Shown piece after piece: positions 17,373-46,814 of a stretch of 64,000 nt of DNA; the stretch's first letter is position 1, and every line of letters begins with the position of its first letter. The stretch lies in contig NZ_KB373314.1 of the NCBI RefSeq assembly GCF_000314795.2, positions 988,418-1,052,417 of the forward strand, written 5' to 3'. Under the pieces are notes generated by a model. The model ran no database searches and was not told the DNA's origin. It worked only from the letters and a program-made list of their open reading frames with translations. Made by a program: the position numbers and the translations under genes. This DNA comes from Streptococcus sp. F0442. Its GTDB lineage: Bacteria; Bacillota; Bacilli; Lactobacillales; Streptococcaceae.

Positions 17373-17425
17373 ATTTTTTCTAGATTCCTTTCGTATCAAG
17401 GGTTTAGACCCTATTGCTTAATTTT

Positions 17426-17445: not shown

Positions 17446-17449
17446 TTTT

Positions 17450-30225: not shown

Positions 30226-30238
30226 GATGTATCACCTC

Positions 30239-30700: not shown

Positions 30701-30721
30701 GTGATTTTCTCCTTTTATTTC

Positions 30722-31018: not shown

Positions 31019-31052
31019 AAGATTTTCCTTTCTGAGTGTAAAATAAAAAGAG

Positions 31053-31299: not shown

Positions 31300-31327
31300 A
31301 TCATTCTCCTTTATTGTAATAAGTAAA

Positions 31328-31369
31328 AAAGCTACTAAGTGAAAAAAGGAAAGAACTTAGTAGCTTGAG
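31328..31369 (-). terminator. Hairpin in the leader of the transfer operon
   Basis: AAGCTACTAAG and CTTAGTAGCTT form a perfect 11-bp stem. On the minus strand the second arm is followed by TTTTTT, so it could act as a terminator or attenuator upstream of the first transfer gene. Confidence 0.65.
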
Positions 31370-31760
31370 AGTAGGTCTATCGAAAGATAGACAGCAGTAA
31401 AGAAAAGTTATTTGGTTGGAAAGATCCCTCTTTCCACGGTGGCAACGTTTAGCAAGGTGCTTTGCGTCAATTACCATCGCTTTCCCAGCCAATCTCTTTA
31501 GGTAGTCATCATCATACCCAAGAGATTCTCTTACGCCCTTTGGCGAAGCCAGTTCACTTTACTATTCGGAAAAGTGCGAAAGTCCGAAATGCGTGGAAGC
31601 CCACAAGAATTGATTCTTGTTTTTCTATCTTCACTTCAACCATAAAACGGACTTGACTTTTCTTATCAAAACATTTACAATAAAGGTACGAAGTTTATGT
31701 GTTGTTCTGATGATCAGTCCTCTGGTTGTCAGACGCACTTTTTATTTAATTGTCAATGAT
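31370..31760 (-). promoter_or_regulatory. Long untranslated leader of the transfer operon
   Basis: About 400 nt without a convincing gene lie between a TTGACA-like -35 (minus strand, 31751-31756) and the attenuator-like hairpin. It holds several short inverted repeats and a 29-codon frame (MVEVKIEKQESILVGFHAFR..., minus strand, starting near 31643). I do not recognise an RNA family. The size, the structure and the terminator at its end fit a leader controlling entry into the transfer operon. Confidence 0.4.
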
Positions 31761-31763
31761 CTA

Positions 31764-31844
31764 AACCTTCTAAAATAAGGTTATTATTTTTAGAAGATAT
31801 ATACTCTTTCGAATATATTTATATTATATACTCGATTGAGTATA
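31764..31844. promoter_or_regulatory. Operators between transfer operon and Xre repressor
   Basis: AACCTT/AAGGTT lies at 31764-31782. Two related palindromes, TATACTC...GAATATA (31800-31817) and perfect TATACTCGATTGAGTATA (31827-31844), have centres 27 bp apart. They lie in the divergent promoter region and are the probable binding sites of the adjacent Xre repressor. Confidence 0.65.
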
Positions 31845-31894
31845 TTGTCAAGAGATTATTGCAAAATATTTTAAAATTTTTTGAGGAATTAAAA

Positions 31895-32224
31895 ATGGGA
31901 TTTCCAGAACGATTAAAAGAACTCCGTTTGAAAAAAGGATTGACACAAAAGGAAATTGCGGAAGAATTTGGTATCAAGCAACCTAATTATCAGCAATGGG
32001 AAAGTGGAAAAAGAAAACCATCGTCTAAAACTTTAGAGAAATTTGCGAATTTCTTTGGAGTTACGATGGACTACCTTGCGGGAAATGATGAAGAATTAGA
32101 TAATGTAGAACTGCTTTTTCGTATGAATTCAAAAGGTTTAACTGATGAAGAAAAGGAGATCTTCAAGAAAGAGTTAATCGAATTTATGGAAGAACGGAAA
32201 AAAGCTTTTAGTAGAAAGAAATAA
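31895..32224 (+). CDS. Xre-family repressor (ICE Arp1/ImmR-like)
   Basis: 109 residues from ATG 31895 (MGFPERLKEL), with a GAGG site. A longer TTG start at 31859 would place the start inside the operator zone. The N-terminal HTH (KGLTQKEIAEEFGIKQPNYQQWESGKRKPSSKTLEKFANFFGV) is clear; the C-terminal 40 residues are a charged helix for dimer formation. Divergent from the transfer operon with palindromes between, it is placed like ImmR/Arp1 of ICEBs1/ICESt3, which keep transfer genes silent. Confidence 0.85.
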   Translation: MGFPERLKELRLKKGLTQKEIAEEFGIKQPNYQQWESGKRKPSSKTLEKFANFFGVTMDYLAGNDEELDNVELLFRMNSKGLTDEEKEIFKKELIEFMEERKKAFSRKK

Positions 32225-32260: not shown

Positions 32261-32294
32261 AGCTTCTGAAATCTAACATTTCAGAAGCTTTTTT
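32261..32294. terminator. Terminator after the Xre repressor
   Basis: AGCTTCTGAAAT/ATTTCAGAAGCT, a perfect 12-bp stem followed by TTTTTT; a second hairpin (ACAAACATC/GATGTTTGT) stands just before it. Confidence 0.85.
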
Positions 32295-32357
32295 CTTGTC
32301 ATAAAATGGCTGCAACTATTATTATTCAATACTTATTATCTCTATTTGTTAAAATAA

Positions 32358-33113
32358 TTAATGATTAAGTAGTGGTCCGCTAAGATGAAATTCAAAATTT
32401 GTAACATCAACTAAACCAATAACTTTGTCACTTTGATATAATTCCATCAAAAATTGTGCCATCTCTTCACTTGTGTGATATTTAGCAAAATGCTCATCAT
32501 AATCATATTCTTTAGAATCTGTAGCAACTTGACCGAATTCCGTTTTTGTGGCAGCTGGAGCTAAAACCTTAGCTTTTAATTGATGTTGATTTGCCTCTAG
32601 TTCCAATGCCAAGCCTTCTGTAAAAGCACTGACATAAAATTTACTTGCACAGTATGTAACTGCATTTGGAACCATCATGTATCCGCCTCTAGATGATAAG
32701 TTAATCAATTGAGCGCCTTTACAATCTTTATAATCTCTCACATATAGAGTTGATAGAATTGTTAAAGCTTCAATGTTTAGATGGATTAATGTTATTATCT
32801 TTTCTAAATCTTGAGATTCAACCTTATCATAATTTCCAAAACCAGCATTATTTATTAGAGTAGTAATGTGATATTTTTTCAAGCTTTCATAAAGAGCAAA
32901 AACATTACTGGACTTCGATAAATCAACAACTTTAATAACAACATCTAAATCCGGATAATGGTTCAAAATCTCTTGCTTCAATTTTTCTAGTCGTTCTTGA
33001 CGCCGAGCAATTAAAATAAGATTCGTTCCTAATTTTGCAAATTGTCTTGCTGTCTCCGCTCCTATACCAGCACTGGCTCCAGTAATACAAGTATAATTCT
33101 TCGTTTGTTCCAT
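32358..33113 (-). CDS. SDR-family oxidoreductase
   Basis: A 251-residue short-chain dehydrogenase/reductase with nucleotide-binding TGASAGIGAE near residue 10, LINNAGFGNYD near 85, and catalytic Ser with YCASK near 150-154. The cofactor-side arginines (ARRQERLEKL) suggest NADP(H). The start is ATG 33113 with AAAGGAG; the in-frame extension to 33146 has none. The substrate is unknown. It is divergent from a MerR regulator whose operator-type promoter drives it, so it probably answers to an aldehyde, ketone or quinone-like stress, as in related pairs. Confidence 0.88.
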   Translation of the reverse strand: MEQTKNYTCITGASAGIGAETARQFAKLGTNLILIARRQERLEKLKQEILNHYPDLDVVIKVVDLSKSSNVFALYESLKKYHITTLINNAGFGNYDKVESQDLEKIITLIHLNIEALTILSTLYVRDYKDCKGAQLINLSSRGGYMMVPNAVTYCASKFYVSAFTEGLALELEANQHQLKAKVLAPAATKTEFGQVATDSKEYDYDEHFAKYHTSEEMAQFLMELYQSDKVIGLVDVTNFEFHLSGPLLNH

Positions 33114-33294
33114 ACTATTTTCTCCTTTACAGATTGCTATTTGCATTTTTTATAAGAGTCGCTGCTCCCATCAAGGTTCTTGACAGCCTTATCACTAAGC
33201 CCCTCTGGAGCTCTCTATTCCTTCAAACCAATTTTTCGTCTATATGGTATTACCTCCTCTCCTAGCTTTATATCAAATTCCTTTGATGCTATGT

Positions 33295-33325
33295 ATTTTA
33301 CATAGTAAAGTGCACTTTATGTCAA
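33295..33325 (-). promoter_or_regulatory. MerR-type promoter of the SDR gene
   Basis: On the minus strand TTGACA (33320-33325) and TAAAAT (33295-33300) are 19 bp apart. The spacer holds the perfect palindrome TAAAGTGCACTTTA. A 19-bp spacer carrying a dyad is the signature of MerR-activated promoters, in which the regulator twists the DNA. Confidence 0.8.
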
Positions 33326-33395
33326 GAGAAAACTGAAAATTTTTTGATTTTTTAAAAATTATGCTAAAATAATAAAAAAAAGGGGGGGAAATATT

Positions 33396-33758
33396 ATGGC
33401 TCACTATTCTATTGGAGAATTTGCTAAAAAAACTGGACTTTCTATTTCCACACTTCGATACTATGAGCAAGAAAAATTGATTTACTCACATAGAGAAGAA
33501 AATAATCGTAGATACTATGATGACTCTGATATAGCGTGGGCTCAATTCATTATTAGATTAAAAAAGACGGGAATGTCTATTAAAAATATGCAAGAATACG
33601 CCGACCTAAGATATAAAGGAGACTCCACAATTCCTCAACGACTTAGACTACTATTTTTTCAACTTGATGAACTTCATAAGCAACAAACTGAAATTAACCA
33701 ACATATTGATTTTCTTGAAAAGAAAATTAAAACTTATTTAGGTATTAATCCTAATTAG
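33396..33758 (+). CDS. MerR-family transcriptional regulator
   Basis: 120 residues. The N-terminal winged HTH reads YSIGEFAKKTGLSISTLRYYEQEKLI, followed by NNRRYYDDSDI and a C-terminal coiled-coil dimer helix. There is no metal-binding cysteine set, so it belongs to the AdhR/aldehyde-type branch and not to the heavy-metal sensors. A G-rich AGGGGGGG ribosome site precedes it. It is divergent from the SDR gene and shares the promoter region with the 19-bp-spacer operator. Confidence 0.9.
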   Translation: MAHYSIGEFAKKTGLSISTLRYYEQEKLIYSHREENNRRYYDDSDIAWAQFIIRLKKTGMSIKNMQEYADLRYKGDSTIPQRLRLLFFQLDELHKQQTEINQHIDFLEKKIKTYLGINPN

Positions 33759-33921
33759 CACCATTATTATTTTCTTTATCCAAAAAAGAGATTGAAGAAA
33801 GTTACCCAAAATGGACTTTTTCTTAACTCTGAAAAGTGGACAATCGTCTACTTTTTTTATATAATTAACTCAACCAAATCGGTTTAGTTTTGTAATTTGT
33901 ACTTAAAGGAGGTATCATTCT

Positions 33922-34782
33922 TTGGATGAATTGTATACAAGAATAAGTAAGGCTACAAAGCATGTGTTATACCAGTACATGAAAGATAATGATATTTCAT
34001 TACTAAATTATAATTTCAATTACTTTTTTCAACATTGTATTCAGAAATATCAGATTCAAGTGATTAGTCACCACTTCTCGAATCACAAGATTGAGGGATT
34101 AACTGTTATAGATGAATTAGGTATTAGTTTTTCTTATGAGAAGGATAATCCTATTGTTAAGCAAAATTTTACTATGTGTCATGAGCTTGGACATTTTATA
34201 TTAGAGCATGAAGGTAATTATTTTGCAGAATCTATTGATAATCAGGAAAATATACTAGAACGTGAAGCGAATATATTTTCAGCTGTAGTATTAATGCCTG
34301 ACATTGTTTTGTTATCTAAAATTTATTATAGTTGTGACACCTTTCAACACATTCAAAATAGTCTGGATGTTTCAAAGCAGGCATTGTTCTTTCGCCTTTT
34401 AGATCTTCTTAGAGAGTATTATCCTGAACAAGAAAGTACCCTTAAGCAGGCTATCGATGCTTATATCGATGGACAAAATGCCACATTACTCCTTTTGTTT
34501 CACGGTATCAAAGAACAGATTATAAAGGAGTTTAACAACTACCAGACTTCTCTAATAAAGAAAATTGAACAATCTGTGAACAAAAGAGGCTTCGTTACTA
34601 GTCAAGAGTATCCTGAACTTTTAAATCAAAAGAATTGGAAAACCATAAAGGATTGTCATGACAATCTAAGAGTATGGCTCATTTATGATAGAGGGAAATC
34701 AATAGCTTATGTTTGGGATAAAAATAAGCTAACAGAAAAAGAGGCAAAACAAAAAGCTGAATTGAAACTACTGTTAATGTGA
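33922..34782 (+). CDS. ImmA/IrrE-family metalloprotease
   Basis: 286 residues with the zinc-protease motif HELGHFILEHE (His87, His91). The start is TTG 33922, 8 bp after a full AAAGGAGGT site. ImmA proteins cleave ICE or phage repressors to release transfer genes; in ICESt3 the equivalent is OrfQ. The gene ends 8 bp before the S24-type repressor, an ImmA-repressor pair. The C-terminal 120 residues have no motif I know. Confidence 0.88.
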   Translation: MDELYTRISKATKHVLYQYMKDNDISLLNYNFNYFFQHCIQKYQIQVISHHFSNHKIEGLTVIDELGISFSYEKDNPIVKQNFTMCHELGHFILEHEGNYFAESIDNQENILEREANIFSAVVLMPDIVLLSKIYYSCDTFQHIQNSLDVSKQALFFRLLDLLREYYPEQESTLKQAIDAYIDGQNATLLLLFHGIKEQIIKEFNNYQTSLIKKIEQSVNKRGFVTSQEYPELLNQKNWKTIKDCHDNLRVWLIYDRGKSIAYVWDKNKLTEKEAKQKAELKLLLM

Positions 34783-34790
34783 GGTAAGTG

Positions 34791-35477
34791 ATGTATCAAC
34801 CAGAAAAACTAAAAACTCGTAGAAAAGAATTGAAATTAACACAAAAGGATATTGCAGATCAATTGGGTATTAGTTATCAAGCTTATTCCGCATGGGAGCG
34901 TGGAGTAAAACAACCATCTAAAGAAAAAGTAAAGCAGTTAGAGCAGATTCTAGATGTCCCAATAGGTTATTTTACAGAGCTTGAATTCGTTCGGCTATAT
35001 AATGCACTATCAGATGAAGGAAAAGATCAAGCACTTAGCTATATCAAAAAAATAGTTCAGAAAGAACAATGTAAGAATGTTATTTCAATAGCAGAGAAAC
35101 TATACGAATACCACGTTTACGAAAAAATGTCGGCTGGTATCGGTTCATCAGTTTATAATGATCAGGACTATGATACTGTTTATTTTGATGAAGAACTAGC
35201 TCATGACTTTGCTTCATGGGTATCTGGAGACTCGATGGAGCCCAAATATAAAAATGGTTCTGTTGCTCTCATTCGTGAAACAGGATTTGATTATGATGGT
35301 GCAGTTTATGCCGTAGTCTGCAATAGCCAGACCTATATTAAACGAGTTTATCGTGAGGAACATGGATTAAGATTAGTTTCTATCAATCCAAAATATCAAG
35401 ATATTTTTCTTTCATATGATGAAGATCCACGAATTGTGGGGATTGTCGTTGGAAACTTTAGGCCAACAGTTGATTAA
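34791..35477 (+). CDS. LexA/CI-like repressor with S24 autoprotease domain
   Basis: 228 residues. The HTH is at about 10-45 (LTQKDIADQLGISYQAYSAWERG), with an Ala115-Gly116 cleavage site, Ser148 (SGDSMEP) and Lys184 (TYIKRVY) in the C-terminal peptidase. It should self-cleave under RecA-type SOS signalling, as for ICE Arp2/CI proteins. ATG 34791 has GAGGT at the proper distance; a GTG one codon upstream is less well placed. A fragment of a second copy of its 3' end lies at 39316-39384. Confidence 0.9.
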   Translation: MYQPEKLKTRRKELKLTQKDIADQLGISYQAYSAWERGVKQPSKEKVKQLEQILDVPIGYFTELEFVRLYNALSDEGKDQALSYIKKIVQKEQCKNVISIAEKLYEYHVYEKMSAGIGSSVYNDQDYDTVYFDEELAHDFASWVSGDSMEPKYKNGSVALIRETGFDYDGAVYAVVCNSQTYIKRVYREEHGLRLVSINPKYQDIFLSYDEDPRIVGIVVGNFRPTVD

Positions 35478-35541: not shown

Positions 35542-35587
35542 ATAGTTAGAATAGTATGAAATCAATAATACATACTATTCTAACTAT
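35542..35587. terminator. Long perfect inverted repeat between converging genes
   Basis: A 17-bp perfect stem starting ATAGTTAGAATAGTATG with a 12-nt loop, between the repressor (+) and the ABC permease (-). There is no T-run, so factor-independent termination is less certain. It could also be an old insertion-sequence end. Confidence 0.5.
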
Positions 35588-35646
35588 GGTAGTGTAAAAT
35601 AAGTTGTGTAAACACAAAATTATTGACAGTATCTAAAGAATTAAAG

Positions 35647-36435
35647 TTATGTAAACTCTAGTTTCCCAGAGGTACGTGACCGTCTTTCCATATATTTTAA
35701 AAGAATATATGCTACTAGAATGAAAGAAAAACCTAAGGTTAACTCTTCATAAATTAGTTTATTATATTCTGAAAGACTATTCCCTTCAATTAAACCTTGA
35801 GCAATCTGAATAGACCTTGTCAAAGGTAATATTTTAGAAAACCACTGGAAAATATAAGGCAATTTACTAACTGGAAAATTAGCTCCAGTAAAAATCAACA
35901 ACAATCGACTGACTAAATTCAATATAAGATTTGTTTCACTTGTTATTAAAATAAAGCATGAAAAAATATATCCAAAACTCATTGCAACGAAAGAAGATAG
36001 GAAAAGAACACCAATAAACGATGAAATCAATTCTAAATTCCAATTAATTCCCAAGATCAAACTCACTAATACCACGCCTATAGTTACAGAAATCATACTA
36101 GTAACCATTGTGCTAATTGCACTAGAAAATAGGATCGAGCTTAACTTTGTTTTTGAAGCAATTAGAAAACTCAATGTTCCATTATTTTTTTCATCCATCA
36201 GTTGTGTGCCTACACCAAACAAAGCTCCAAAAGATGCTATTAGTATCGCATTTCCAATCATCCATTTTTGAATATAATCAGTTCCGTAAATATATCCAGC
36301 AACCAAGGAGAAAAGCAATGTTTGTGAAACTGGGGGAATTAGATCGAACATCATATAAGTTTTCCAATCCGACATCACTGAGGATTGTTTATAAGAAAAG
36401 ATGATCCTTCTGAAAAATCTAAAAATGCTTTCCAT
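35647..36435 (-). CDS. ABC-2 type exporter permease (second)
   Basis: 262 residues with six membrane helices in the ABC-2 arrangement (pairs around 25-80, 100-160, 170-200, 235-250). It abuts the upstream permease (1-bp gap). With that protein and the ATPase it forms a DrrAB-type exporter with two different permeases. The substrate is unknown; drug or peptide export or self-protection are typical roles. Confidence 0.85.
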   Translation of the reverse strand: MESIFRFFRRIIFSYKQSSVMSDWKTYMMFDLIPPVSQTLLFSLVAGYIYGTDYIQKWMIGNAILIASFGALFGVGTQLMDEKNNGTLSFLIASKTKLSSILFSSAISTMVTSMISVTIGVVLVSLILGINWNLELISSFIGVLFLSSFVAMSFGYIFSCFILITSETNLILNLVSRLLLIFTGANFPVSKLPYIFQWFSKILPLTRSIQIAQGLIEGNSLSEYNKLIYEELTLGFSFILVAYILLKYMERRSRTSGKLEFT

Positions 36436-37206
36436 TTAATATACCTCCAAAGTTGCGTCAATTCTACTTTTTTTCTCTATACTAATAAATGCAAAGTAAG
36501 CAATTATAAAATTAAATACGGTAAGTAAGGAGAGAATTGATATAACAATAAATATCTCCTTTGAATTCCCACCGTATACAGCAAGTTTAAAGCCCTCCAT
36601 TACCCATGTTGGAGATAAAATATATGAAATCCACTTTATATATTGGTTTATAAAATCTAAAGGGAATACCATCCCTGTTATTAAAAGTAACGGATACTCT
36701 ATTAAGTTCATTAACAAACGTGCACTTCTTGATAAGGTAAATACTGAACACATTAGCATTCCTATACTAACGAAGGTCAATATTGCTAAGACAATCACAA
36801 TTACTAATAAGCTATAAATCTTAACAGCCATTATGCGACCAAATAATATCATTACAAAAAATACATTCAACAAAAATGCTATTACTCCCCAAAGACTGTT
36901 ACCAAGTAATTTACCCAAAATAATCTTTTTAAAACCTGACGGTGACGTGAATAAAATAGGTAACGTTCCTAAATACTTTTCTCTGTTTATATCTGCAGCT
37001 GATGAAAAACAAATAATGGTCCAAAATGAAGATAGAGAGGTTCCCAAAATAGCATATAAAGTAAATTCTTGATTGGATTTATTACTATACATTAGACCTA
37101 AGAGGACAGCGTTACACAGAGGATTTAAAAATAGACAATAGCGAAACATACTTCTAGCAATTGCTTGCTTCATGTGTACAATAGCACTAGCAAAAATAAC
37201 TTTCAT
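36436..37206 (-). CDS. ABC-2 type exporter permease (first)
   Basis: 256 residues with six membrane helices. Residues 90-105 (LFTSPSGFKKIILGKLLGN) form the cytoplasmic coupling helix region typical of ABC-2 permeases. It lies 8 bp after the ATPase gene and directly before the second permease; the pair should make a heterodimer. Confidence 0.85.
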   Translation of the reverse strand: MKVIFASAIVHMKQAIARSMFRYCLFLNPLCNAVLLGLMYSNKSNQEFTLYAILGTSLSSFWTIICFSSAADINREKYLGTLPILFTSPSGFKKIILGKLLGNSLWGVIAFLLNVFFVMILFGRIMAVKIYSLLVIVIVLAILTFVSIGMLMCSVFTLSRSARLLMNLIEYPLLLITGMVFPLDFINQYIKWISYILSPTWVMEGFKLAVYGGNSKEIFIVISILSLLTVFNFIIAYFAFISIEKKSRIDATLEVY

Positions 37207-37214
37207 ACTTACGA

Positions 37215-38006
37215 CTACCTCACTAAATGTAAATAAATATCTTCCAGAGTTACATCTATCTCTTTTTGTTCTTTTACTTTATCTTGAAGAATTTTTGTTC
37301 TCTCTTCATCCGAAATTAATGATGCAATTTCTGGTAATGTGCCACAGGTTACAATTTCTCCATGATTAATAATTGCAATTCTATCACAAAGTTCCTCAGC
37401 TTCAGCCATATAATGGGTTGTTAAAAGAATAGTTTTTCCTTTTTTAGCCAACTCTTTTATTATATTTCTCAATTCAAGAGCTCCAACTGGATCGAGACCA
37501 ATGCTTGGCTCATCCAAAAAAATTATCTCTGGATCATTTAATAATGCGCGAGCGATTTGAAGCCTTTGTTTCATACCTTTAGAAAAAGTTTCAACTCTGC
37601 GTTTTCCTACATTGCCTAAACCTACTAATTCAAGAAGTTCAGGAACTAATTCCAATTGTTTTTTTCGAGAAATCTTATATAAATCTGCGAAATAAAACAA
37701 ATTATCCTCGGCAGAAAGTCTAAAATATAAACTTCTTTCTCCTCCAAAAATGAAATTTATTCTCTCGCGAATTTTTTGCTCATCTTTATAGATATCAAAT
37801 CCAGATATTTCTACTTCACCTGATGTAGGAAGAAGCATTGTTGAAAGGATTTTTATTGTAGTTGACTTGCCTGCACCATTCGGACCAAGTAATCCAAAAA
37901 TCTCTCCTCTCTGTATTGAAAATGAAATACCTTTTAATGCTTCGAAAGCCTCCCCCGTATCTCGAATAGAAAAAGTTCTTTTTAAATTTTTTACGCTAAT
38001 TACCAT
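37215..38006 (-). CDS. ABC exporter ATPase
   Basis: 263 residues with Walker A GPNGAGKSTTIK, signature FSKGMKQRLQIA, Walker B IIFLDEPSIGLDP and the H-loop THYMAEAE. This is the DrrA/NatA-like class with a C-terminal extension. The start chosen is ATG 38006 (MVISVKN), which has a GAAAGGAAG site. The in-frame ATG at 38030 lies at the edge of the palindrome and has no site. The promoter -10 (TACAAT) lies inside the 26-bp palindrome shared with the Rgg gene. Confidence 0.92.
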   Translation of the reverse strand: MVISVKNLKRTFSIRDTGEAFEALKGISFSIQRGEIFGLLGPNGAGKSTTIKILSTMLLPTSGEVEISGFDIYKDEQKIRERINFIFGGERSLYFRLSAEDNLFYFADLYKISRKKQLELVPELLELVGLGNVGKRRVETFSKGMKQRLQIARALLNDPEIIFLDEPSIGLDPVGALELRNIIKELAKKGKTILLTTHYMAEAEELCDRIAIINHGEIVTCGTLPEIASLISDEERTKILQDKVKEQKEIDVTLEDIYLHLVR

Positions 38007-38024
38007 TTTAGACTTCCTTTCAGT

Positions 38025-38050
38025 TTTCATTTATTGTACAATAAATGAAA
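38025..38050. promoter_or_regulatory. 26-bp perfect palindrome, probable Rgg operator
   Basis: TTTCATTTATTGT followed by its exact complement, between the divergent exporter operon and Rgg gene. TACAAT on the minus strand inside it can serve as the -10 of the exporter operon, with GTTTAC 16 bp upstream as -35. A regulator bound here would control the exporter and possibly its own gene. Confidence 0.7.
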
Positions 38051-38085: not shown

Positions 38086-38937
38086 ATGAAATCAAAACTT
38101 GGCATTACACTTAGAAAAGTTCGTAAAGGGAAACAAATGAGTATTTGCTCTCTAGCAGATGAGTATCTATCTAAATCACAAATATCTCGTTTTGAACGAG
38201 GGGAATCAGAAATATCCTGCGCTCGACTTATCAATATATTAAATAAATTACACATTACATTGGACGAATTTCTTATTTTACATGACAAAGACTACCCCCA
38301 AACTGAGTCATTTGCAAACTTGGTACACTATATCCGTAAACAATATTCTGTACAAAACTTTGACAAGATAAAAACTTTACTTTCAAATTCCTCAAATTAC
38401 ACTTTAAATCATTTTGAAAGAACGATGGTAAAATCCATTCTACACACCGTGGATTCCAATATTTTTCCAACTGATGAAGAATTACTTCAACTGACAGATT
38501 ATCTTTTTAAGGTTGAGAAATGGGGTTACTATGAAATCATATTATTAGCTAACTGTGTGCGAACAATTAACTACAAATCTTGCTACTTACTAACAAAGGA
38601 AATGTTAAACAATCACATCTTTTCTTCTTTAAATAAAACAAATAAACGAATTGTTTCTCAACTTGCCATAAATTGTTTCATTCTTAGTATCGATAAAGAA
38701 GAATTTTCAAATTGCTCCTATTTAATTGATAAGATAAAGGAGTTGCTAGATAACGAATTAAACTTTTATGAACAGACAGTTTTCCTCTATGCAACTGGTT
38801 ACTATGAATTTAAGCTTCAATCAAGTACTGGAATCGAAAAAATGAAACAGGCTATAAAAGTTCTAGATATTTTAGGTGAAGACAAGTTAAAACTACACTA
38901 TACTGACCATTTTAATAAATTGGTAAACAGAGAATAA
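38086..38937 (+). CDS. Rgg/MutR-family regulator
   Basis: 283 residues. The HTH at 8-55 ([40 protein letters not shown]) is typical of streptococcal Rgg proteins, followed by an all-helical TPR-like domain. Many Rgg proteins sense short hydrophobic peptides (SHP). I searched the flanks by eye and found no SHP gene, so this may be a stand-alone type like MutR/GadR or use a distant peptide. Its divergent neighbour is the ABC exporter, the probable target. Confidence 0.88.
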
Positions 38938-39056: not shown

Positions 39057-39284
39057 TTATTCTAGATAGATATCTCCTTGGACATTGTAATATATGTGTT
39101 TATGTGTATCGAGAATCTTCACAAATGTTTCTAACCTTCGAGCTAGTTCCTCATACTCATCAAGATAACATCCTAGCTCCTCTTGCAATACTCTTATTTC
39201 TTCAGTCACTTGTTCTAGTGTAATGGATTCTGTTAAACTCCGTTTTGAAAAGTCATACTTTGCTAATTTTCGACTGCAATGATA
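39057..39284 (-). pseudogene. C-terminal remnant of an unknown helical protein
   Basis: An open minus-strand frame of about 75 codons without a start codon encodes a charged, heptad-like helical end (KYDFSKRSLTESITLEQV...) finishing GDIYLE. Upstream, the frame is closed by a stop exactly where the arp2-like fragment begins (39283). It looks like the 3' end of a gene cut by recombination. I do not recognise the parent. Confidence 0.45.
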
Positions 39285-39294
39285 TCAAGACCTA

Positions 39295-39315
39295 AAGAAT
39301 CTTAAATTAAGTCTT
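39295..39315. repeat. 21-bp repeat shared with the right island end
   Basis: A 21-bp sequence beginning AAGAATCTTAAATTAAG is identical to 46780-46800, where it abuts the attR core. Here it abuts a fragment of the S24 repressor gene. Confidence 0.7.
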
Positions 39316-39384
39316 TCTTTCATATGATGAAAATCCGCGAATAGTAAGAATTATTGTTGGTAATTTTGTACCAATAAAACTCTA
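39316..39384 (+). pseudogene. 3' fragment of an S24 repressor gene
   Basis: Codes for SYDENPRIVRIIVGNFVPIKL and a stop, closely matching the C-terminus of the repressor at 34791-35477 (SYDEDPRIVGIVVGNFRP). Several third-position differences show it is a diverged homologue and not a recent copy. Everything upstream of the last ~22 codons is gone. Confidence 0.75.
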
Positions 39385-39528
39385 ACAACATTTTATTTAC
39401 GTTTATTTTCTATTTCTGATGATTATGTAATAGAGGAATGTAGATATCATTTACATGGAAACTCTATACGCCAACCCCTTAAATATTTAGATAAATTACA
39501 AATATTACAGAAATATTTCAAAAAACAC

Positions 39529-39556
39529 TTGACAATATGTAATTTCGTAATATAAT
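39529..39556 (+). promoter_or_regulatory. Promoter of the SH3-like lipoprotein gene
   Basis: TTGACA (39529-39534), 16-bp spacer, TATAAT (39551-39556): both hexamers are consensus. Confidence 0.85.
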
Positions 39557-39583
39557 AGTGTGTATCAAATGAAGTGAGGTATC

Positions 39584-40123
39584 ATGATGATGAAAAAATG
39601 GACAAGTTTAGCACTTCTAGGATTAGCTTCTGCAAGCCTACTCGTAGCTTGTGGTTCAAAAAAAGAGGAGAGCAAATCCTCTGCCAAAGAAGCACAAACA
39701 ACGGTGAAGTCTAGTCAGAAAAAAGCAAAAGCATCTTCTGGAAAGAAAGAGACAAAAACTGCTGAAGCTAGTGCCGCTTCTAGTGCAACAACTACTGCAC
39801 CAACACAAGCGCAAGCTCAAACACCAACGCAACCAAGTCAAGGTAACAGTGCTAATCAAGCTGGAACCACAACTTCTAAATCTGATCCGAAAACAGGTTA
39901 TGGCGGTTGGGAAGCCACTTCTGGTACTTTGGAGTTGTTAAAAGATACCCCTGTCTATGCTTCACCTGATAAAAGCAGCGGTGTTGCTTATGTACAACCT
40001 CAAGCAAACATTGAGTGGGACAATTACATGTACGAAAACGGTGAGTGGTGGTACAGCTTTGTTCAAAAAAATCGTGACCAAGAAGTTCGATATTACATTG
40101 CTTATTCAGATGTAGGCTATTGA
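39584..40123 (+). CDS. Lipoprotein with SH3b-like C-terminal domain
   Basis: 179 residues. A lipoprotein signal ends at LLVACGSKK. A Lys/Ser/Ala/Thr/Gln-rich flexible linker (about 25-105) is followed by a compact domain of about 70 residues (GTLELLKDTPVYASPDKSSGVAYVQPQ...WWYSFVQ) with the look of a bacterial SH3 fold, which often binds cell wall. Three tandem ATGs are possible starts; the second or third suits the GAGGT site better. A fragment of another lipoprotein family follows directly. Confidence 0.8.
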   Translation: MMMKKWTSLALLGLASASLLVACGSKKEESKSSAKEAQTTVKSSQKKAKASSGKKETKTAEASAASSATTTAPTQAQAQTPTQPSQGNSANQAGTTTSKSDPKTGYGGWEATSGTLELLKDTPVYASPDKSSGVAYVQPQANIEWDNYMYENGEWWYSFVQKNRDQEVRYYIAYSDVGY

Positions 40124-40136
40124 TAGAAAAAGAGAG

Positions 40137-40229
40137 GGCCATTACACACCAATTTTATTTGTAACAGGGCTTAATGAAGATTTTGATTATAGCAAATACA
40201 CTGATTTCCGTGTTTCCCTTACAAAATAA
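40137..40229 (+). pseudogene. 3' fragment of a lipoprotein gene related to the one at 50515
   Basis: Encodes GHYTPILFVTGLNEDFDYSK then YTDFRVSLTK and a stop, aligning with the C-terminus of the intact lipoprotein at 50515-51165 (GHYTPIVFTTDLNTEFDYTK). It has no start or ribosome site, and lies 14 bp after the SH3-like lipoprotein gene, as if that gene replaced the front of the older one. Confidence 0.75.
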
Positions 40230-40257
40230 AAACATATTCAATGCTCTTAAAATTAAC

Positions 40258-40302
40258 AACACCCCAAAAGTTAGATTTTCCATCTATCTTTCAGGGTGTT
40301 TT
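40258..40302. terminator. Terminator after the lipoprotein fragment
   Basis: AACACCC/GGGTGTT with an extended inner stem and TTTTTT on the right. Confidence 0.6.
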
Positions 40303-40347
40303 TTATATCCTAATTAAGTATGAAATTAAAACTTCATAGCTCTGTTT

Positions 40348-40563
40348 CTACTTATATTGTTGAAGTGCTTTATTATATGCTTCACTACTTTTTTGGTAAT
40401 ATTCATGTTCTATTCCTGATATATCGACTGTAATGGTACCATCCTTAACTTTATATTTAGTGGCACCTTCTCCTGATAAATGGAAGGTGTTATTTTCTTG
40501 ATCAATTATAAAGCTATATATTTTTTAATCTAGTTCAAAAGAAAGTTGTTCTTTATTTAACAT
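40348..40563 (-). pseudogene. Broken copy of the 120-residue lipoprotein family
   Basis: On the minus strand the frame reads MLNKEQLSFELD, a TAA, then KIYSFIIDQENNTFHLSG...VDISGIEHEYYQ...ALQQYK. It aligns with the C-terminal two thirds of the intact lipoprotein at 45753-46115 (VDISGIKHDYYLKDSEAYKKALKQY). The signal peptide and Cys are missing and there is an in-frame stop, so it cannot make a lipoprotein. Intact and broken copies flank the LanFEG/two-component cassette. Confidence 0.75.
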
Positions 40564-40622
40564 CTTAGACCTTCTTTCTATAAAAACTAGGTCAAGCATA
40601 CCAGATAAAGCTTGGAGCTTTT

Positions 40623-40643
40623 ATCACAAGAAAAAGACTCCGA
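40623..40643 (-). terminator. Terminator of the LanFEG-type operon
   Basis: AAGACTC/GAGTCTT with a 4-nt loop, followed on the minus strand by TTTTTC, just after the last permease gene. Confidence 0.75.
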
Positions 40644-40655
40644 AGAGTCTTCGCA

Positions 40656-41384
40656 TTACTTATGCAATTCTTTATTACTCAATGTATGAAAAATCCCCCA
40701 CAGAAGAATATTTACAATGATAAACAGCAATATTTCCACTAAATTAAAGTCTATCAAATTCCGTGACCGCATTGCCACCATAGCTTGGGAGTAGGGATAG
40801 ATTAAAGATAATTTATCAGATACAAAAATCATCATAAATCCTACGAAAGTACCAATAGAACCAATTCCCACAGATTTACTAAATACACGAGTTTTAGCTG
40901 TCACAAAAAACTGTACTGCCATCATACTAATTGTTCCAAAAATCCCCAATAAATCCCACTTAAGGTAGGTGAACAAATTAGAAATTTCTAAATGAATTAG
41001 GTGAGCACTGACATAAAAAATACCAAACAAGAACAACTGTAAAACAGCAATAAACAAGATAATTACTATTTCTTTTGCCAACAATAATTTCCCAAGACTG
41101 ACATTATTAGCTCTGAGAAATTCAATATTTTTCCTATCAAACTCTTTTCCTAACATCATGGCTACATAAATGCTGACCAAAATCGGAAAGAAAAGCTGGC
41201 TATAATAGAAGGTCAATTGTCCCCATAAAACAGGCACTTTTTCACTTTCTGCAACCATAGAATAAGCTGCACCTAAGTAAATACCAAGACCAATCAGGCT
41301 ACAAAAAGCTAAGAAGAAAATACCAATCATCAACATGGAAAATTTTTGGGTTTTCCGCCATTCTACTGATAGATAAGACATCAT
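40656..41384 (-). CDS. Lantibiotic-immunity ABC permease, LanG-like
   Basis: 242 residues with six membrane helices. Its ATG overlaps the stop of the LanE-like gene by 4 bp. Two dissimilar ~250-residue permeases after one ATPase, with a divergent NisRK-type two-component system, form the LanFEG immunity layout (for example LctFEG with LcrRS in S. mutans). It would help expel a lantibiotic from the membrane. Confidence 0.82.
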   Translation of the reverse strand: MMSYLSVEWRKTQKFSMLMIGIFFLAFCSLIGLGIYLGAAYSMVAESEKVPVLWGQLTFYYSQLFFPILVSIYVAMMLGKEFDRKNIEFLRANNVSLGKLLLAKEIVIILFIAVLQLFLFGIFYVSAHLIHLEISNLFTYLKWDLLGIFGTISMMAVQFFVTAKTRVFSKSVGIGSIGTFVGFMMIFVSDKLSLIYPYSQAMVAMRSRNLIDFNLVEILLFIIVNILLWGIFHTLSNKELHK

Positions 41385-42139
41385 AGCTTGCCTCCTTTCT
41401 TTTCAACTAGATAGAGAGATAAGAAGAGATAGATTAGGGCTATTGGCAAATATGTAAAGAGTTTAAATCCTAGGTTTGTCGCCAAAACATAACTCACTTG
41501 ACTGGCGACTTTCTGGTAATCCACCAGAGACAGATATGCTATACCACCAAATGGGAAAATCAGCTGTAGAAAAGCTGTTGCATGACCAAATCCAACTCCA
41601 AGAAATCCTCCGAAAATCCCTAATGCCATTATCAATGCCTGCTTTTTCAGTAAAAACTGCAAAGTCAAAAACAGACAGGTTAAGACAAAAGATGCTAGCA
41701 AGAAAATGACGATTTGCCAGAGGATTAGGCTAACAGGCATTTCTAGACCAGAAAAGTTTGCAATCAACTGGACTACTACTCCCTCCAAAATAGCGAGAAA
41801 GGTCAAAACGAACATAGTCAGGCCAAGCTTACTCAGAAAGATATGCAGTGCATTTTCACCATTTGCCAAAAGTAGTTTGAAAGTGTTGCCCTCCTTTTCG
41901 TTCTTGACAATCCGGGATACAAAGAGAGCAATCACGATAGGGAGAATCAAGCCATTTACTTCTTTTATCATATAGAAAATTAGGTTAATCTGGTGCATGT
42001 TTGGATTACTTAGGTAACGTGTAGCGGCTGCAATTGCCCAAGCAAATCCGACTCCCATAACTAGTATGCTAATGAAGAAGGATTTGGTTCGTTTTGCCTT
42101 GAGCAATTCAATAGACAAATTATTCAACATAAGACTCAC
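41381..42139 (-). CDS. Lantibiotic-immunity ABC permease, LanE-like
   Basis: 252 residues with six membrane helices. A charged motif (SRIVKNEKEGNTFKLLLANGENALHIFLSKL, about 70-100) marks the ABC-2 coupling region common to LanE/BcrB proteins. It overlaps both the ATPase gene and the LanG-like gene by 4 bp (ATGA junctions), so the three subunits are translated together. Confidence 0.83.
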   Translation of the reverse strand: MSLMLNNLSIELLKAKRTKSFFISILVMGVGFAWAIAAATRYLSNPNMHQINLIFYMIKEVNGLILPIVIALFVSRIVKNEKEGNTFKLLLANGENALHIFLSKLGLTMFVLTFLAILEGVVVQLIANFSGLEMPVSLILWQIVIFLLASFVLTCLFLTLQFLLKKQALIMALGIFGGFLGVGFGHATAFLQLIFPFGGIAYLSLVDYQKVASQVSYVLATNLGFKLFTYLPIALIYLFLSLYLVEKKGGKL

Positions 42140-43047
42140 TCCTTGGTTAAGTTAAGGAAGATAGATTCCAAGGTTTCTTGTTCTTGCTTCACTTCATAAA
42201 TTGGAACTTTCTCGACTATTAAATCTCGCAACAAACTAGAAATCTGCTGATCGGCAAGGTTAGTCAGCTTGAGTTTATCCTCTTGTATCTCTAACATCTT
42301 GCACGGATAACCAAATAACACTTGGCTAATGACTTCACGTCGATCTCTAAAATCCCCACGCACTTCCAGCCATTTATTGGACTGAATTTTACGAATTTCT
42401 CCCTCGTAAACCAGTTGACCATGATTGATAATCCCCACACGGTCAGCGATATGCTCTACTTCAGAAAGGATATGGGTAGAGATGAAGACAGTAATGCCCT
42501 GTTCTTTTGCCAACTTGATAATCAGTTCCCGAATTTCATGAATCCCTGCTGGGTCTAGCCCGTTTGTTGGCTCATCCAGTATCAACAAACGTGGTTTCTT
42601 GACTAAGGCAAAGGCTAAAGCCAAACGCTGTTTCATACCCAAGGAATAATCTTTAACCAATTTTTTCTTGTTTTTAGGTTGATCTAACCCCACAATTTTC
42701 AAGGTTTCCTGAATATTTTTCTTATCAAATCCAAGGATTTTTTGGAAGACCAAGAGATTTTCATAGCCTGTCAAATTAGGATAATAAGACGGTTCTTCAA
42801 TCATAGAGCCAATCTGATTAAGATACTGCTTGTCCGTACCTATGGGTTGACCGAACACTTCAATCTCCCCAGCTGTACGAGAAATCAAAGACAAAATCAT
42901 CTTCATGGTGGTTGTTTTCCCAGCTCCATTTGGACCTAGAAAACCATAAATCTCACCTTGTTGAACTGATAAGGAACTAAGGTTAACTACCTGAGTGTCC
43001 TTAAATCCCTTTTGTAAGTTTTTTATCTGTAAAACATTACTAATCAT
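42136..43047 (-). CDS. Lantibiotic-immunity ABC ATPase, LanF-like
   Basis: 303 residues with Walker A GPNGAGKTTTMK, signature YSLGMKQRLALA and Walker B LLILDEPTNGLDP. The sequence around the Q-loop (GSMIEEPSYYPNLTGYENL) is of the BcrA/LanF kind, where the loop often carries Glu in place of Gln, as here (MIEEP). I start at ATG 43047, which has GAGGAGGAAG upstream; the extension to 43065 runs into that site. A 16-codon frame ends across this start (see 43040-43090). Confidence 0.9.
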   Translation of the reverse strand: MISNVLQIKNLQKGFKDTQVVNLSSLSVQQGEIYGFLGPNGAGKTTTMKMILSLISRTAGEIEVFGQPIGTDKQYLNQIGSMIEEPSYYPNLTGYENLLVFQKILGFDKKNIQETLKIVGLDQPKNKKKLVKDYSLGMKQRLALAFALVKKPRLLILDEPTNGLDPAGIHEIRELIIKLAKEQGITVFISTHILSEVEHIADRVGIINHGQLVYEGEIRKIQSNKWLEVRGDFRDRREVISQVLFGYPCKMLEIQEDKLKLTNLADQQISSLLRDLIVEKVPIYEVKQEQETLESIFLNLTKE

Positions 43048-43090
43048 TATGAACTTCCTCCTCAACGAGATTCATTTGTTGTTTAGCCAT
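43040..43090 (-). CDS. 16-codon frame leading into the LanF-like gene
   Basis: ATG 43090 has a GAGGT site 8 bp upstream and encodes MAKQQMNLVEEEVHND, with its TAG overlapping the LanF ATG, as for translationally coupled leader frames. The NLVEEEV piece resembles the NLLEEV core of class II lantibiotic leader peptides. Whether it is translated, a decayed lantibiotic gene or chance is not known. Confidence 0.4.
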   Translation of the reverse strand: MAKQQMNLVEEEVHND

Positions 43091-43240
43091 TTGGAAATAC
43101 CTCACTGATTAAAATTTATTTGAGAAGTATCTCTATCTAGGTTATGTCTTTATTATAGACATGCTAGATTAATTTTAAACTAAGCTAACCTTAATTTTAC
43201 ATTAATATTAAAGTGTTTTACCTTTTTTCACTCTTTTAAA

Positions 43241-43249
43241 TGGTATAAT
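43241..43249 (+). promoter_or_regulatory. Extended -10 promoter of the two-component system
   Basis: TGG-TATAAT stands 22 bp before the response regulator ATG. In the same 200-bp gap, ATGTCT/AGACAT (about 43147-43165) surrounds a minus-strand TATAAT that can serve the LanF operon. Confidence 0.65.
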
Positions 43250-43270
43250 ATAGATAAGTGAGGTAAGATT

Positions 43271-43969
43271 ATGAATTTCGAACAACAACTCCTGAATAAG
43301 CACATCCTTATCATTGATGACGATAAAATTTTAAACTCTTCCATAAGAGATATTCTCACTGCCTACGGATTTTCCAATCTAACATCAGCCTATGATATAG
43401 AATCTAGTTTGGACATGATTGAAACAGAGCAGTTCGACCTTTTCCTTTTGGACATTATGCTCCCCGATGGTGATGGCTACACATTAGCAAAACATATCCG
43501 AAAAAAAGGCGATACACCTATCCTCTTTCTGACTGCCAAAAATAATCCTGAAGATGAGGTAGCTGGTTTCAATGCTGGTGGTGATGATTATGTCATGAAA
43601 CCCTTCATTCCAAAAAATCTTATCTATCGGATTATGGCTCTGCTCCGGAGAAGCTATAAATCAGAACAGGAAGCAATACAGATTGGACAGACTTTGGTGA
43701 GTTTTCGGAATGCAACAGTACAAAAAAATGGAGCAGAAATTTCTATTACGCCAATTGAAATTCAGATTTTGAAAAAACTTTACGATAATAAAAATTACAT
43801 CGTTTCAACCGAATCTCTCTGTGATACGATTTGGGGAGTGGATAGCTTTGGTTATGAAAACACTTTGACTGTACATATTCGGAAAATTCGAGAAAAAATA
43901 GAAGAAAATCCTTCAAAACCTCAATATTTAAAGACAGCTAAAGGGCTGGGATATAAATTGTTATCATGA
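43271..43969 (+). CDS. OmpR-family response regulator
   Basis: 232 residues. The receiver domain has the acidic pocket (IIDDD at about 15-18), phospho-acceptor Asp61 (FLLDIMLPDGDG), the conserved Thr in FLTAK and Lys in VMKPF. A C-terminal winged-helix DNA-binding domain follows. It belongs to the NisR/SpaR/LcrR-like group. Its stop overlaps the kinase start by 4 bp. It probably activates the divergent LanFEG-type operon when a lantibiotic is sensed. Confidence 0.92.
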   Translation: MNFEQQLLNKHILIIDDDKILNSSIRDILTAYGFSNLTSAYDIESSLDMIETEQFDLFLLDIMLPDGDGYTLAKHIRKKGDTPILFLTAKNNPEDEVAGFNAGGDDYVMKPFIPKNLIYRIMALLRRSYKSEQEAIQIGQTLVSFRNATVQKNGAEISITPIEIQILKKLYDNKNYIVSTESLCDTIWGVDSFGYENTLTVHIRKIREKIEENPSKPQYLKTAKGLGYKLLS

Positions 43970-45336
43970 TTATGAACCAAACCAAAATTTTAAGGTATTC
44001 ACTAAAGAAATTTATCTTTTTTTCCATCATTATCTTCATTACCAATATTCTTCTAATTGCCAGTTTTGTTTTCTACATTAAGGAAAAGCAAACTGCTACT
44101 GAGACTGTGAAAATAATTTCTGAACACATTACCATCACAAAAAATAACGTCCACATACCCAAAAATGATGTTTCTAGTCTAAAAGAACAAAAGTTATGGC
44201 TCATGGTATTGGATAAGCAGACTGGCAAACAAGTGTTCGAACAGTATAAACCTACAGAAGTTCCTTCGCAATTTGACTATGGGGACATTTTACAATTTTC
44301 TCGCTATTATCTTTCAGATTATCCTGTTTTTAGTCAGATAAAAGGTGACTACATCATTGTTGTTGGTTTTCCAAAAGATAAAATTGCTCGTTATAGTTAT
44401 AATTACTTAGATATAGATAGTATTCGCCTGATTCCGCTAGTAGCATTTGGAGTATTGCTTTTCAACTGCCTTTATTTCGCTTTTCTTTACTACTATGGTG
44501 TGACGCATATCAATCGTAAAATTGCGCCTCTTGTAACTGCTATTCAGAATCTCCCGGATGGTCTGAAAAATCCAATAAATTCTATATCAGAACTAGAATA
44601 TCTTACAACTGCAATTAATCAAACTGATACTCTACTCAAAGAGAATGAAGTCTTTAAAGAGCAATGGATTTCAGGTATTGCACACGATATCAAAACACCT
44701 CTTTCTGTCATCATTTCTAACGCGTCCTTGTTAAATGATTCTGAACTAGATACACAGTCTAAAAAACATATTCCCCCAATATTGACGGAATCCTATTACA
44801 TCCAAAATATTTTAAATGACTTAAATATAGTAGCTCGCCTTTCATCCGGTCATCTTCAATTAAATCAGACTGAAACAAAAATTATCCCCTTCTTCAAAGA
44901 TATTCTCATCCATATTTTAAATCAAGAAATCTGGAATGATTTTGAATTTGAATTTGATTACGATTATTCACTTGTTAATCAATCTATCATGATTGAGCAG
45001 TTTTTAATCACAAGAGTTATCCATAATATCATCTACAACTCTGTTTTACATAACGAAAAGGGTTGCACAATAAGAATCCACTTATTCAAAAAAGATACAA
45101 ATGTAATTGTCGAAATCAAAGATAATGGACAGGGAGCTTCACCAGAAAAAATTGCTGAACTTAATGAATTATCTTTTAAAAACATTGATATTTCTAAAAT
45201 TAGAACGACTGGAATTGGGCTAAAAATTTCAAAACAAATTGTTGATTTGCATCAGGGCTCTATTTCATTTGCTAGTGTCCAAAATGAATTCTTTGAAAGT
45301 ATCATTTCACTTCCAATTTTCAACATTACCAATTAG
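43966..45336 (+). CDS. Sensor histidine kinase, NisK-like
   Basis: 456 residues. The two membrane helices (about 15-38 and 157-178) enclose an extracellular domain of about 115 residues. The phospho-acceptor is His240 (GIAHDIKTPLSV), with N-box IIYNSVLHNEKG and G-boxes EIKDNGQGAS and GIGLKISKQIV. The layout is that of lantibiotic-sensing kinases such as NisK/LcrS. A second ATG two codons in is an alternative start. A terminator follows at 45341-45377. Confidence 0.9.
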   Translation: MIMNQTKILRYSLKKFIFFSIIIFITNILLIASFVFYIKEKQTATETVKIISEHITITKNNVHIPKNDVSSLKEQKLWLMVLDKQTGKQVFEQYKPTEVPSQFDYGDILQFSRYYLSDYPVFSQIKGDYIIVVGFPKDKIARYSYNYLDIDSIRLIPLVAFGVLLFNCLYFAFLYYYGVTHINRKIAPLVTAIQNLPDGLKNPINSISELEYLTTAINQTDTLLKENEVFKEQWISGIAHDIKTPLSVIISNASLLNDSELDTQSKKHIPPILTESYYIQNILNDLNIVARLSSGHLQLNQTETKIIPFFKDILIHILNQEIWNDFEFEFDYDYSLVNQSIMIEQFLITRVIHNIIYNSVLHNEKGCTIRIHLFKKDTNVIVEIKDNGQGASPEKIAELNELSFKNIDISKIRTTGIGLKISKQIVDLHQGSISFASVQNEFFESIISLPIFNITN

Positions 45337-45340
45337 CCAA

Positions 45341-45377
45341 AAAATGGAGAAGAACCATTAGAGTTTTCTCCATTTTT
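45341..45377 (+). terminator. Terminator of the two-component operon
   Basis: AAAAATGGAGAA/TTCTCCATTTTT stem followed by T residues, just after the kinase stop. Confidence 0.85.
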
Positions 45378-45557
45378 TCATCTTATCTTCCACTTATACC
45401 CGGCCCAACCTGCCAAGACAAGCAAAGCAAGGTTAAAGAGGATGAAGAAGATTGTAAAACTGAGGAATCCATTTTTTGCTACGGAGAATTGGAGATTGAT
45501 ATGGTTGGGGGCATTATTAGCCACAGCATTGCATTTTTTCCATTCTATTTTGTACAT
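45378..45557 (-). CDS. 59-codon membrane peptide frame, opposite strand to the next entry
   Basis: The frame MYKIEWKKCNAVANNAPNHI continues to a single hydrophobic helix and ends GWAGYKWKIR. A membrane helix followed by a short basic tail is the look of a real protein C-terminus. There is no ribosome site at the ATG and an in-frame stop three codons upstream, so it may be the tail of a lost gene. It overlaps the frame at 45501-45674; at most one is likely to be real. Confidence 0.35.
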   Translation of the reverse strand: MYKIEWKKCNAVANNAPNHINLQFSVAKNGFLSFTIFFILFNLALLVLAGWAGYKWKIR

Positions 45558-45674
45558 GGGAAATCAATGATTTTATTAGGAATTTTGTGCACTATTAATA
45601 TTATCATGGGGTATATTTTTTCTGCTGTCTCTTTGATTAAACTAATTTGCATGAAATATAAACTATTCGGTTAA
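45501..45674 (+). CDS. 57-codon two-helix membrane peptide
   Basis: ATG 45501 has GGAG six bases upstream. The product (MVGGIISHSIAFFPFYFVHG...) has two hydrophobic helices and a basic end (KYKLFG). It could be a small immunity-type peptide or the remnant of a permease. It is unrecognised; the opposite-strand frame overlaps it. Confidence 0.35.
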   Translation: MVGGIISHSIAFFPFYFVHGKSMILLGILCTINIIMGYIFSAVSLIKLICMKYKLFG

Positions 45675-45716
45675 GAATAAGCTTAAAAGTTTTTTGAAGT
45701 AATCTATTCAGCACAA

Positions 45717-45744
45717 AAAAACACCTATTCGGTAAAATAGGTGT
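45717..45744 (-). terminator. Terminator of the 120-residue lipoprotein gene
   Basis: ACACCTAT/ATAGGTGT stem followed on the minus strand by TTTTTTT. Confidence 0.85.
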
Positions 45745-45752
45745 GAATGATG

Positions 45753-46115
45753 TTATTTATATCCATATTGTTTCAGAGCCTTTTTATATGCTTCGCTATC
45801 TTTAAGATAGTAGTCATGCTTAATTCCACTAATATCAACAGAAAAGACCCCATCTTTAAATGAATATTCTTCTGTTCGACTAGCAATGTTTTGTCCAGTT
45901 AATTCGATCGTATTCTTTTGTTTGTTAATGGTAAAGCCGTCGGCTTCTCCATGCTCAATGGAAGCATTATTTCCTTTAATAGTAAACGCTAACTCGTTTC
46001 TTTCACTTGAGATCCAATAATACTCACCATCTAAAGATTGGTAGTTGTTTTTAGAGCAAGCAATTAACGTAATTATTGATAATGAAAGTAGTAATATACC
46101 TATTAATTTTCTCAT
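45753..46115 (-). CDS. Small lipoprotein of unknown function
   Basis: 120 residues with a signal peptide ending ITLIACSKN (lipidated Cys20). The mature part is mainly β, with a repeating TIKG/TINK/ELTG strand pattern and the family end VDISGIKHDYYLKDSEAYKKALKQY. A broken paralogue lies at 40348-40563. GGAGG precedes the start. The place beside a LanFEG/two-component cassette might suggest an immunity lipoprotein (LanI-like), but no specific motif supports that. Confidence 0.8.
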   Translation of the reverse strand: MRKLIGILLLSLSIITLIACSKNNYQSLDGEYYWISSERNELAFTIKGNNASIEHGEADGFTINKQKNTIELTGQNIASRTEEYSFKDGVFSVDISGIKHDYYLKDSEAYKKALKQYGYK

Positions 46116-46239
46116 AATCTGTGCCTCCTTCTATAATTTTAATTATACCAAAATAATATTACAAGAGTATGTCAGTGTCTGTTATAACGGAAAAATGAAG
46201 AAATGTCTATTATAACAGCAAATATTAAACTTTCGTCGA

Positions 46240-46576: not shown

Positions 46577-46629
46577 ATAGATGGCTTTTTCCGTCTAGCA
46601 TAATTTTATAAAATAAACTAAATATAAAC

Positions 46630-46655
46630 AAAAGAGGCATTTAGGCCTCTTTTTC
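46630..46655. terminator. Bidirectional terminator near the right island end
   Basis: AAAGAGGC/GGCCTCTTT with T-rich right and A-rich left flanks. It would stop the displaced ebfC promoter from reading far into the island. Confidence 0.7.
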
Positions 46656-46674
46656 TCTCCTTCAAACACTCTGT

Positions 46675-46694
46675 CACTGTCCATTTACTGTCCA
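46675..46694. repeat. Tandem arm-type repeats at the right island end
   Basis: CACTGTCCAT and TTACTGTCCA spaced 10 bp, the counterpart of 17426-17445 at the left end, in the same direction. Confidence 0.5.
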
Positions 46695-46779
46695 ATATAA
46701 TGTAATACATCTATAAATTGTTGATTTTATCGAATGCAAAATCGCTTAAAATCAATATTTTGACGGATAACAAGACTTT

Positions 46780-46814
46780 AAGAATCTTAAATTAAGTCTT
46801 GCATATTCATCATA
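46780..46814. repeat. attR: 21-bp island end plus 16-bp core
   Basis: The 21-bp sequence shared with 39295-39315 runs into the 16-bp core TTGCATATTCATCATA (46799-46814; the two share TT), identical to 17357-17372. Confidence 0.75.

Follow-up and report, generated by a model that had tools for sequence, protein, structure and literature searches.

A right-end fragment joined to a second repressor tail inside an ebfC-integrated element of Streptococcus sp. F0442

The element at ebfC and its gene content

The window, i.e. the whole stretch of 64,000 nucleotides analyzed, comes from Streptococcus sp. F0442 and hosts an ICE which occupies the 5' end of ebfC, approximately from 17357 to 46814. The core repeat, TTGCATATTCATCATA, is found in identical 16-bp copies at the start of ebfC (attL core, 17357-17372, forward strand) and at the opposite border (attR core, 46799-46814, forward strand). 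The tyrosine integrase gene (17450-18601, reverse strand; Pfam Phage_integrase, 3.5e-15) has counterparts 96-100% identical in nine other genomes carrying the same type of right end. Domain searches assigned to the element the conjugation domains PF02486 (6.8e-49), PF01580 (1.5e-14) and AAA_10 (2e-99), which we take to denote the MobT-type (Rep_trans) relaxase, the FtsK-like coupling protein and the VirB4-like ATPase of the ICESt3 family. These three functions, together with a site-specific tyrosine integrase and direct repeats at the 5' end of ebfC, place the element, as far as sequence can tell, among ICESt3-family ICEs, for which ebfC is a published integration site (PMC4701971). The native right end (46627-46800, forward strand) is conserved over about 170 bp (46630-46800) at other right ends, mostly at 84-96% identity. 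No Rfam match was obtained at the gathering threshold within 17000-47500.

The left end of the ICE (17373-17448) resembles the conserved leader found directly upstream of ebfC in element-free genomes, and therefore the integrated ICE may supply ebfC with a substitute leader. Other right-end types precede the same GCAT(A/G)TTCATCAT core and ebfC leader at loci L236, L240 and L251, and at L239 and L258 (genomes G033, G177, G217, and G176, G269, respectively); several element types seem to use the ebfC site.

An intact repressor gene with HTH and S24 domains (34788-35477, forward strand; Pfam Peptidase_S24, 1.8e-23, HTH_3, 1.2e-16), named arp1 by analogy with ICESt3, is 85-88% identical in five other ICEs. 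Next to it lies a first cargo, itself a mosaic made up by the end of a short repeated element, an ABC transporter, an rgg gene and a relaxase remnant. The repeat (35587-35633, forward strand), near-identical over 28-37 bp to sequences in many genomes and plasmids, probably is the remnant of an insertion sequence end. The transporter (35647-38030, reverse strand) comprises two ABC-2 permeases, both with ABC2_membrane domains, and one ATPase (ABC_tran, 37215-38030), and is 88% identical over most of its length in G180 and G150. It is followed by an Rgg-type regulator (38086-38937, forward strand; Rgg_C, 1.1e-48), over which the single, short match of the phage search was located, and by a truncated relaxase gene of MobA/VirD2 type, of which the 3' end, 72 codons and the stop, is left (39057-39275, reverse strand). 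This remnant, 83% identical through 39277 to locus L117 of genome G238, in which a whole homologue of 621 aa has MobC and this rgg gene as neighbors, is cut at about 39277, immediately left of the internal right-end fragment described below.

A second cargo (40656-45336), assigned by Pfam, consists of a two-component system and an ABC transporter, the latter presumably bacteriocin-immunity-like. The block 40619-45401 is 97.7% identical in L055, where it is inverted, and 98% identical in Lactococcus cremoris plasmids, and reads as recently moved cargo. Similarly, a block at 32261-33796, the genes of which look from their sequences like a short-chain dehydrogenase and a MerR-like regulator, is inverted and about 98% identical in L049, L050 and L055. 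A small lipoprotein-like gene with about 120 bp beside it (45753-46233) was met with several times across related islands, frequently with cargo blocks on either side.

The internal junction and its native continuation

A preliminary description of the locus had noticed, at 39295-39315, 21 bp identical to the sequence abutting attR, directly followed by the last 22 or so codons of a diverged S24 repressor gene, and both observations hold. Allowing up to 3 mismatches, the 21-mer occurs in the window at this position and at 46780-46800 only, the latter copy belonging to the native right end, which the attR core follows immediately; none was found in 100 shuffled sequences. Leftward the similarity continues, 35 bp in all differing at 3 positions (39281-39315 vs. 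46766-46800). A fragment of 38 bp (39278-39315, forward strand), inclusive of the 21-mer, is 100% identical to the right end of G215, where the same 38 bp immediately precede an attR core of the ebfC type. The native end of the window is matched by other right ends over about 170 bp or more, the internal copy over its last 34-38 bp only; the match of genome G281 to the internal copy is 49 bp long, arp1 tail included.

The octamer TATCAAGA (39283-39290), previously regarded as the left flank of a repressor gene into which the 21-bp end had been inserted, falls within the 38-bp fragment. Since G215 carries it in its right end before the core, it is part of the right-end allele; its reading as a repressor flank is rejected, and insertion of a 21-bp end into a repressor gene is not supported. 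The octamer occurs nine times in the window against about four expected, a number reached in 4 of 100 shuffles.

The displaced arp1 tail, 22 codons and the stop (39317-39385, forward strand), is 79% identical over 61 nt to the last part of the intact arp1. An 18-bp repeat, TTTCTTTCATATGATGAA, is located inside the intact gene (35406-35423, forward strand) and again, without changes, at 39314-39331. Thirty-three loci with arp1 relatives were taken from public genomes. The arp1 3' site was recognized, with up to 4 mismatches, once in each of 11 of them, the pattern being unmatched in the other 22. In six genomes (loci L045, L047 of G144, L048, L053, L072 of G205 and L035 of G150) the end of arp1 continues uninterrupted, and collinear with the displaced tail, into what is, in the window, the post-scar sequence, the match reaching 39772 or further, in the lipoprotein region, in five of them and measuring 125 nt in L048. 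A gene (39584-40123, forward strand) without Pfam match, lipoprotein-like by its sequence, directly follows arp1 in G144, G150, G205 and L045.

All six relatives are left by the window exactly at 39313/39314. In L045, a Streptococcus timonensis locus, both arp1 copies of the window align at one break point, position 10619. Compared with L045, the right of the scar (39314-40377) is 98.8% identical over 1065 columns, but the left of the break (33782-35459, about 1.7 kb with arp1 and immA) 92.4% identical over 1678 columns. The difference in identity and the uninterrupted relatives therefore set the end of the foreign block at 39313/39314. Its start, judged from the alignment, falls between the left 18-bp repeat and the last part of the intact arp1 (35435-35477, forward strand): the gene shows no difference from L045 along 35334-35434, a stretch that spans the repeat, and its tail is unlike L045, with the first differences at 35435 and 35438. 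Further stretches similar to L045 are 45628-46224 (97.8%) and 28466-32223 (93.5%), and the immA-arp1 stretch is mosaic against the same locus, identity ranging from 79 to 100% per 100 bp.

An apparent duplication of immA and arp1 in G205 was set aside, a stretch of N being present at that place. A chromosomal S24 gene flanked by a polymerase gene, presumably UmuC-like, was considered as original target and rejected, since no break in gene order was present in the three loci that were read.

When the arp1 site is aligned with the ebfC attB at the joint, nine of the 11 positions in the center agree (ATATTTT, one mismatch, C, one mismatch, T). A score as high or higher is reached at 0.05% of 1.17 million positions, comprising both strands of the window and 28 related loci, and four other spans gave 0.10-0.29% of positions as good. 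The core common to the right end and arp1 is limited to TT plus scattered matches.

Right ends and junctions among streptococci

The joined 25-mer was searched, with up to 3 mismatches, in 284 Streptococcus genomes, the window's own included. It was found, both times exact, in two, i.e. the genome under study and G281, one of the 283 others. G281 differs from the window in its right-end allele, its arp1 tail and its genes on both sides; the 35.5-46.8 kb block with the same junction, conservation of which in unrelated ICEs the preliminary description had set against its own reading, was thus not found elsewhere. Beyond the junction, G281 carries an ICE remnant which runs to rpmG (L33 by Pfam), a gene also found at the end of the S. 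oralis L113 ICE. The ebfC site of G281 is empty, the native leader being present, and the genome has neither an ebfC-type integrase (best match 37%) nor a remaining arp1 of the 85% class (best 51%). Viral contigs gave no exact match to either the junction or the 21-mer, and contain distant relatives of arp1 only.

Right-end sequences gave 24 matches in 18 genomes, five of which (L003, L008, L010, L016, L017), each showing 2 mismatches and lacking the surroundings of a right end, were dropped. Fourteen of the 19 retained right ends are followed by an ebfC-type core, in three cases as the GAATATTCATC variant, location at ebfC not being confirmed for each. The remaining five, in the window, G281, G205, G144 and G150, are scars devoid of core. 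The right end is joined to arp1 in the window and G281, to an inverted rpmG-type end in G205 and G144, and to a cargo gene in G150. The change occurs directly after AAGTCTT in all five, the next bases in G150, TGCATA, being partly core-like, and a second right end lies 7.5-23.4 kb downstream on the same contig in four of them. In G205 and G144 (L012 and L019, position 1522 onwards), the internal right end and the inverted rpmG-type ICE end meet at the same join.

The partner product, arp1 joined to a left end, is absent from the window, and was not encountered among 61 matches to leader/left-end sequences in 54 of the 284 genomes, 52 of which adjoin ebfC and nine right-end-like attR sequences. 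G008 and G179, taken as candidate tandem junctions of a right end and a left end, were rejected: the sequence past the core is the native ebfC leader, which also occurs at the ebfC site of G281 and of many further genomes.

Origin of the junction

Two related elements, as suggested in the preliminary description, probably met here, the sequence past 39314 being the native continuation of arp1 and closer to the S. timonensis ICE than the sequence on the left. At little better than even probability, the scar is a recombinant junction of two ICESt3-type ICEs, generated by integrase-type joining to the 3' end of arp1 and followed by loss of backbone. The right end of an ebfC-type ICE (A) would have been joined to a secondary attachment site at the arp1 3' end of another ICE (B) by site-specific recombination, presumably catalyzed by an integrase. 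The duplicated backbone, including the predicted junction of arp1 and left end, would have been lost later by homologous recombination, which may have left one conjugative backbone with arp1, the first cargo and right end A, the latter fused to the arp1 tail of B, its lipoprotein gene, the second cargo and the right end at ebfC.

This succession of events is supported by what is directly observed: the exact right-hand boundary, at which the arp1 end of relatives enters post-scar sequence; the native continuation, with its higher identity to L045; the recurrence in G281 with a different allele, tail, neighbors and site; the change after AAGTCTT in every scar; and the likeness of the arp1 site to the ebfC attB. 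It is weakened by the missing arp1-left-end junction, by the slightness of the core that right end and arp1 have in common, and by the lack of differences between arp1 and L045 across the left repeat. A single ancestral junction spread by homologous recombination would also explain both genomes, and two cases are few. It is put forward tentatively, as a possibility well short of even, that ebfC-type integrases genuinely use the arp1 3' end as a secondary attachment site, by way of which ICEs integrate into the repressor gene of a resident element.

Joining of two ICEs has to be weighed mainly against direct insertion of the cargo segment (approximately 35.41-39.31 kb) into the arp1 3' end, with a replacement tail of its own and no second ICE. 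The 18-bp direct repeat flanks the segment on both sides, arp1 is intact with a different tail, as is seen with islands entering gene 3' ends, and the 101 bp of arp1 identical to L045 (35334-35434), like the post-scar sequence, fit insertion into an L045-like arp1 equally well. Yet neither an integrase gene nor a left end was seen in the segment, the fragment at its right end is of the ebfC type, the core of which is different, and the 1.7 kb of arp1 and immA are more distant from L045 than the right side is, all of which make insertion unlikely, if still to be reckoned with. A deletion within two ICEs arranged in tandem at ebfC, extending imprecisely from the internal attachment site to the second arp1 3' end and removing left end and backbone, is rather improbable. 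A route by which elements first accrete and then lose one of the two sets of modules has been published (PMC5357655) and both sides of the scar lie in one ebfC island, but an imprecise deletion would hardly strike the same nucleotide twice, and a tandem with shared core fails to explain G281, in which an ebfC-type right end accompanies an rpmG-site remnant.

Streptococci are often competent, and the mosaic immA-arp1 stretch could reflect natural transformation with ICE DNA, anchored by homology in arp1 and joined illegitimately at the other end. The illegitimate end would have to hit the att boundary of a right end exactly, and to do so again in G281, which renders this origin very unlikely. 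Slighter still is the chance of an assembly error or of fortuitous similarity: islands contain repeated right ends, and such repeats are known to cause misassembly, but the repeat is short, no chance match is expected, the same junction is found in a second genome, and the genome of the window is assembled in 3 contigs.

The 39.3-46.8 kb region, formerly proposed to have come with a second element, is not supported as an autonomous one, its left boundary being a right-end fragment plus an arp1 tail, with no attL-type site. Composite islands, CIMEs (cis-mobilizable elements) and accretion with subsequent loss of modules have been published for streptococci (PMC7563491, PMC5357655). The island described here resembles those presented in the relevant parts of these papers, being composite, with internal remnants of recombination sites and cargo without transfer genes, and differs from them because the internal junction lacks a shared-core att site, and leads from a right end to a repressor 3' end. 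Att sites at both ends, as in a CIME, are found neither in 39.3-46.8 kb, which has no core or left end on its left side, nor in 35.4-39.3 kb, where arp1 is followed by no ebfC-type left end, the 18-bp repeat alone being present.

With the ICESt3-family ICEs at ebfC, as portrayed in parts of PMC4701971, the element shares tyrosine integrase, Rep_trans (MobT-type) relaxase, FtsK-like coupling protein, VirB4-like ATPase, regulation genes and direct repeats; unlike them, it contains one more right-end fragment, in its interior, joined to the tail of another arp1. Conjugation experiments have demonstrated the nesting of Tn1806 within snf2 of a different ICE (PMC12942858), and IMEs are known inside traG, maff2 and snf2 (PMC5357655). 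Entry of one element into a gene of another, giving a composite, would be common to those cases and to ours. However, in the portions of both papers concerned the sites are traG, maff2 and snf2 of the Tn5252 superfamily and not the arp1 3' end, and the left side of a nested element is not seen in the window; for an ICE nested in arp1, the right junction recurs in the two genomes and the left one is absent, as reported above. A literature search of limited scope returned no report of integration at the arp1 3' end, and the passages of PMC3083328 consulted contain nothing on this site. The building of composites by such elements is of a known kind; the novelty, a modest one, is the joining of a right end to the arp1 3' end.

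The junction is a readable fossil of conjugative elements merging and swapping cargo, and internal right ends retained in ebfC islands can mislead the annotation of element boundaries. The arp1 3' end is a testable candidate secondary attachment site, located in a gene thought to control transfer. Were arp1 to serve as such, entry of an ICE would truncate the repressor of the resident element, superinfection would be tied to derepression, and the formation of composites would be favored.
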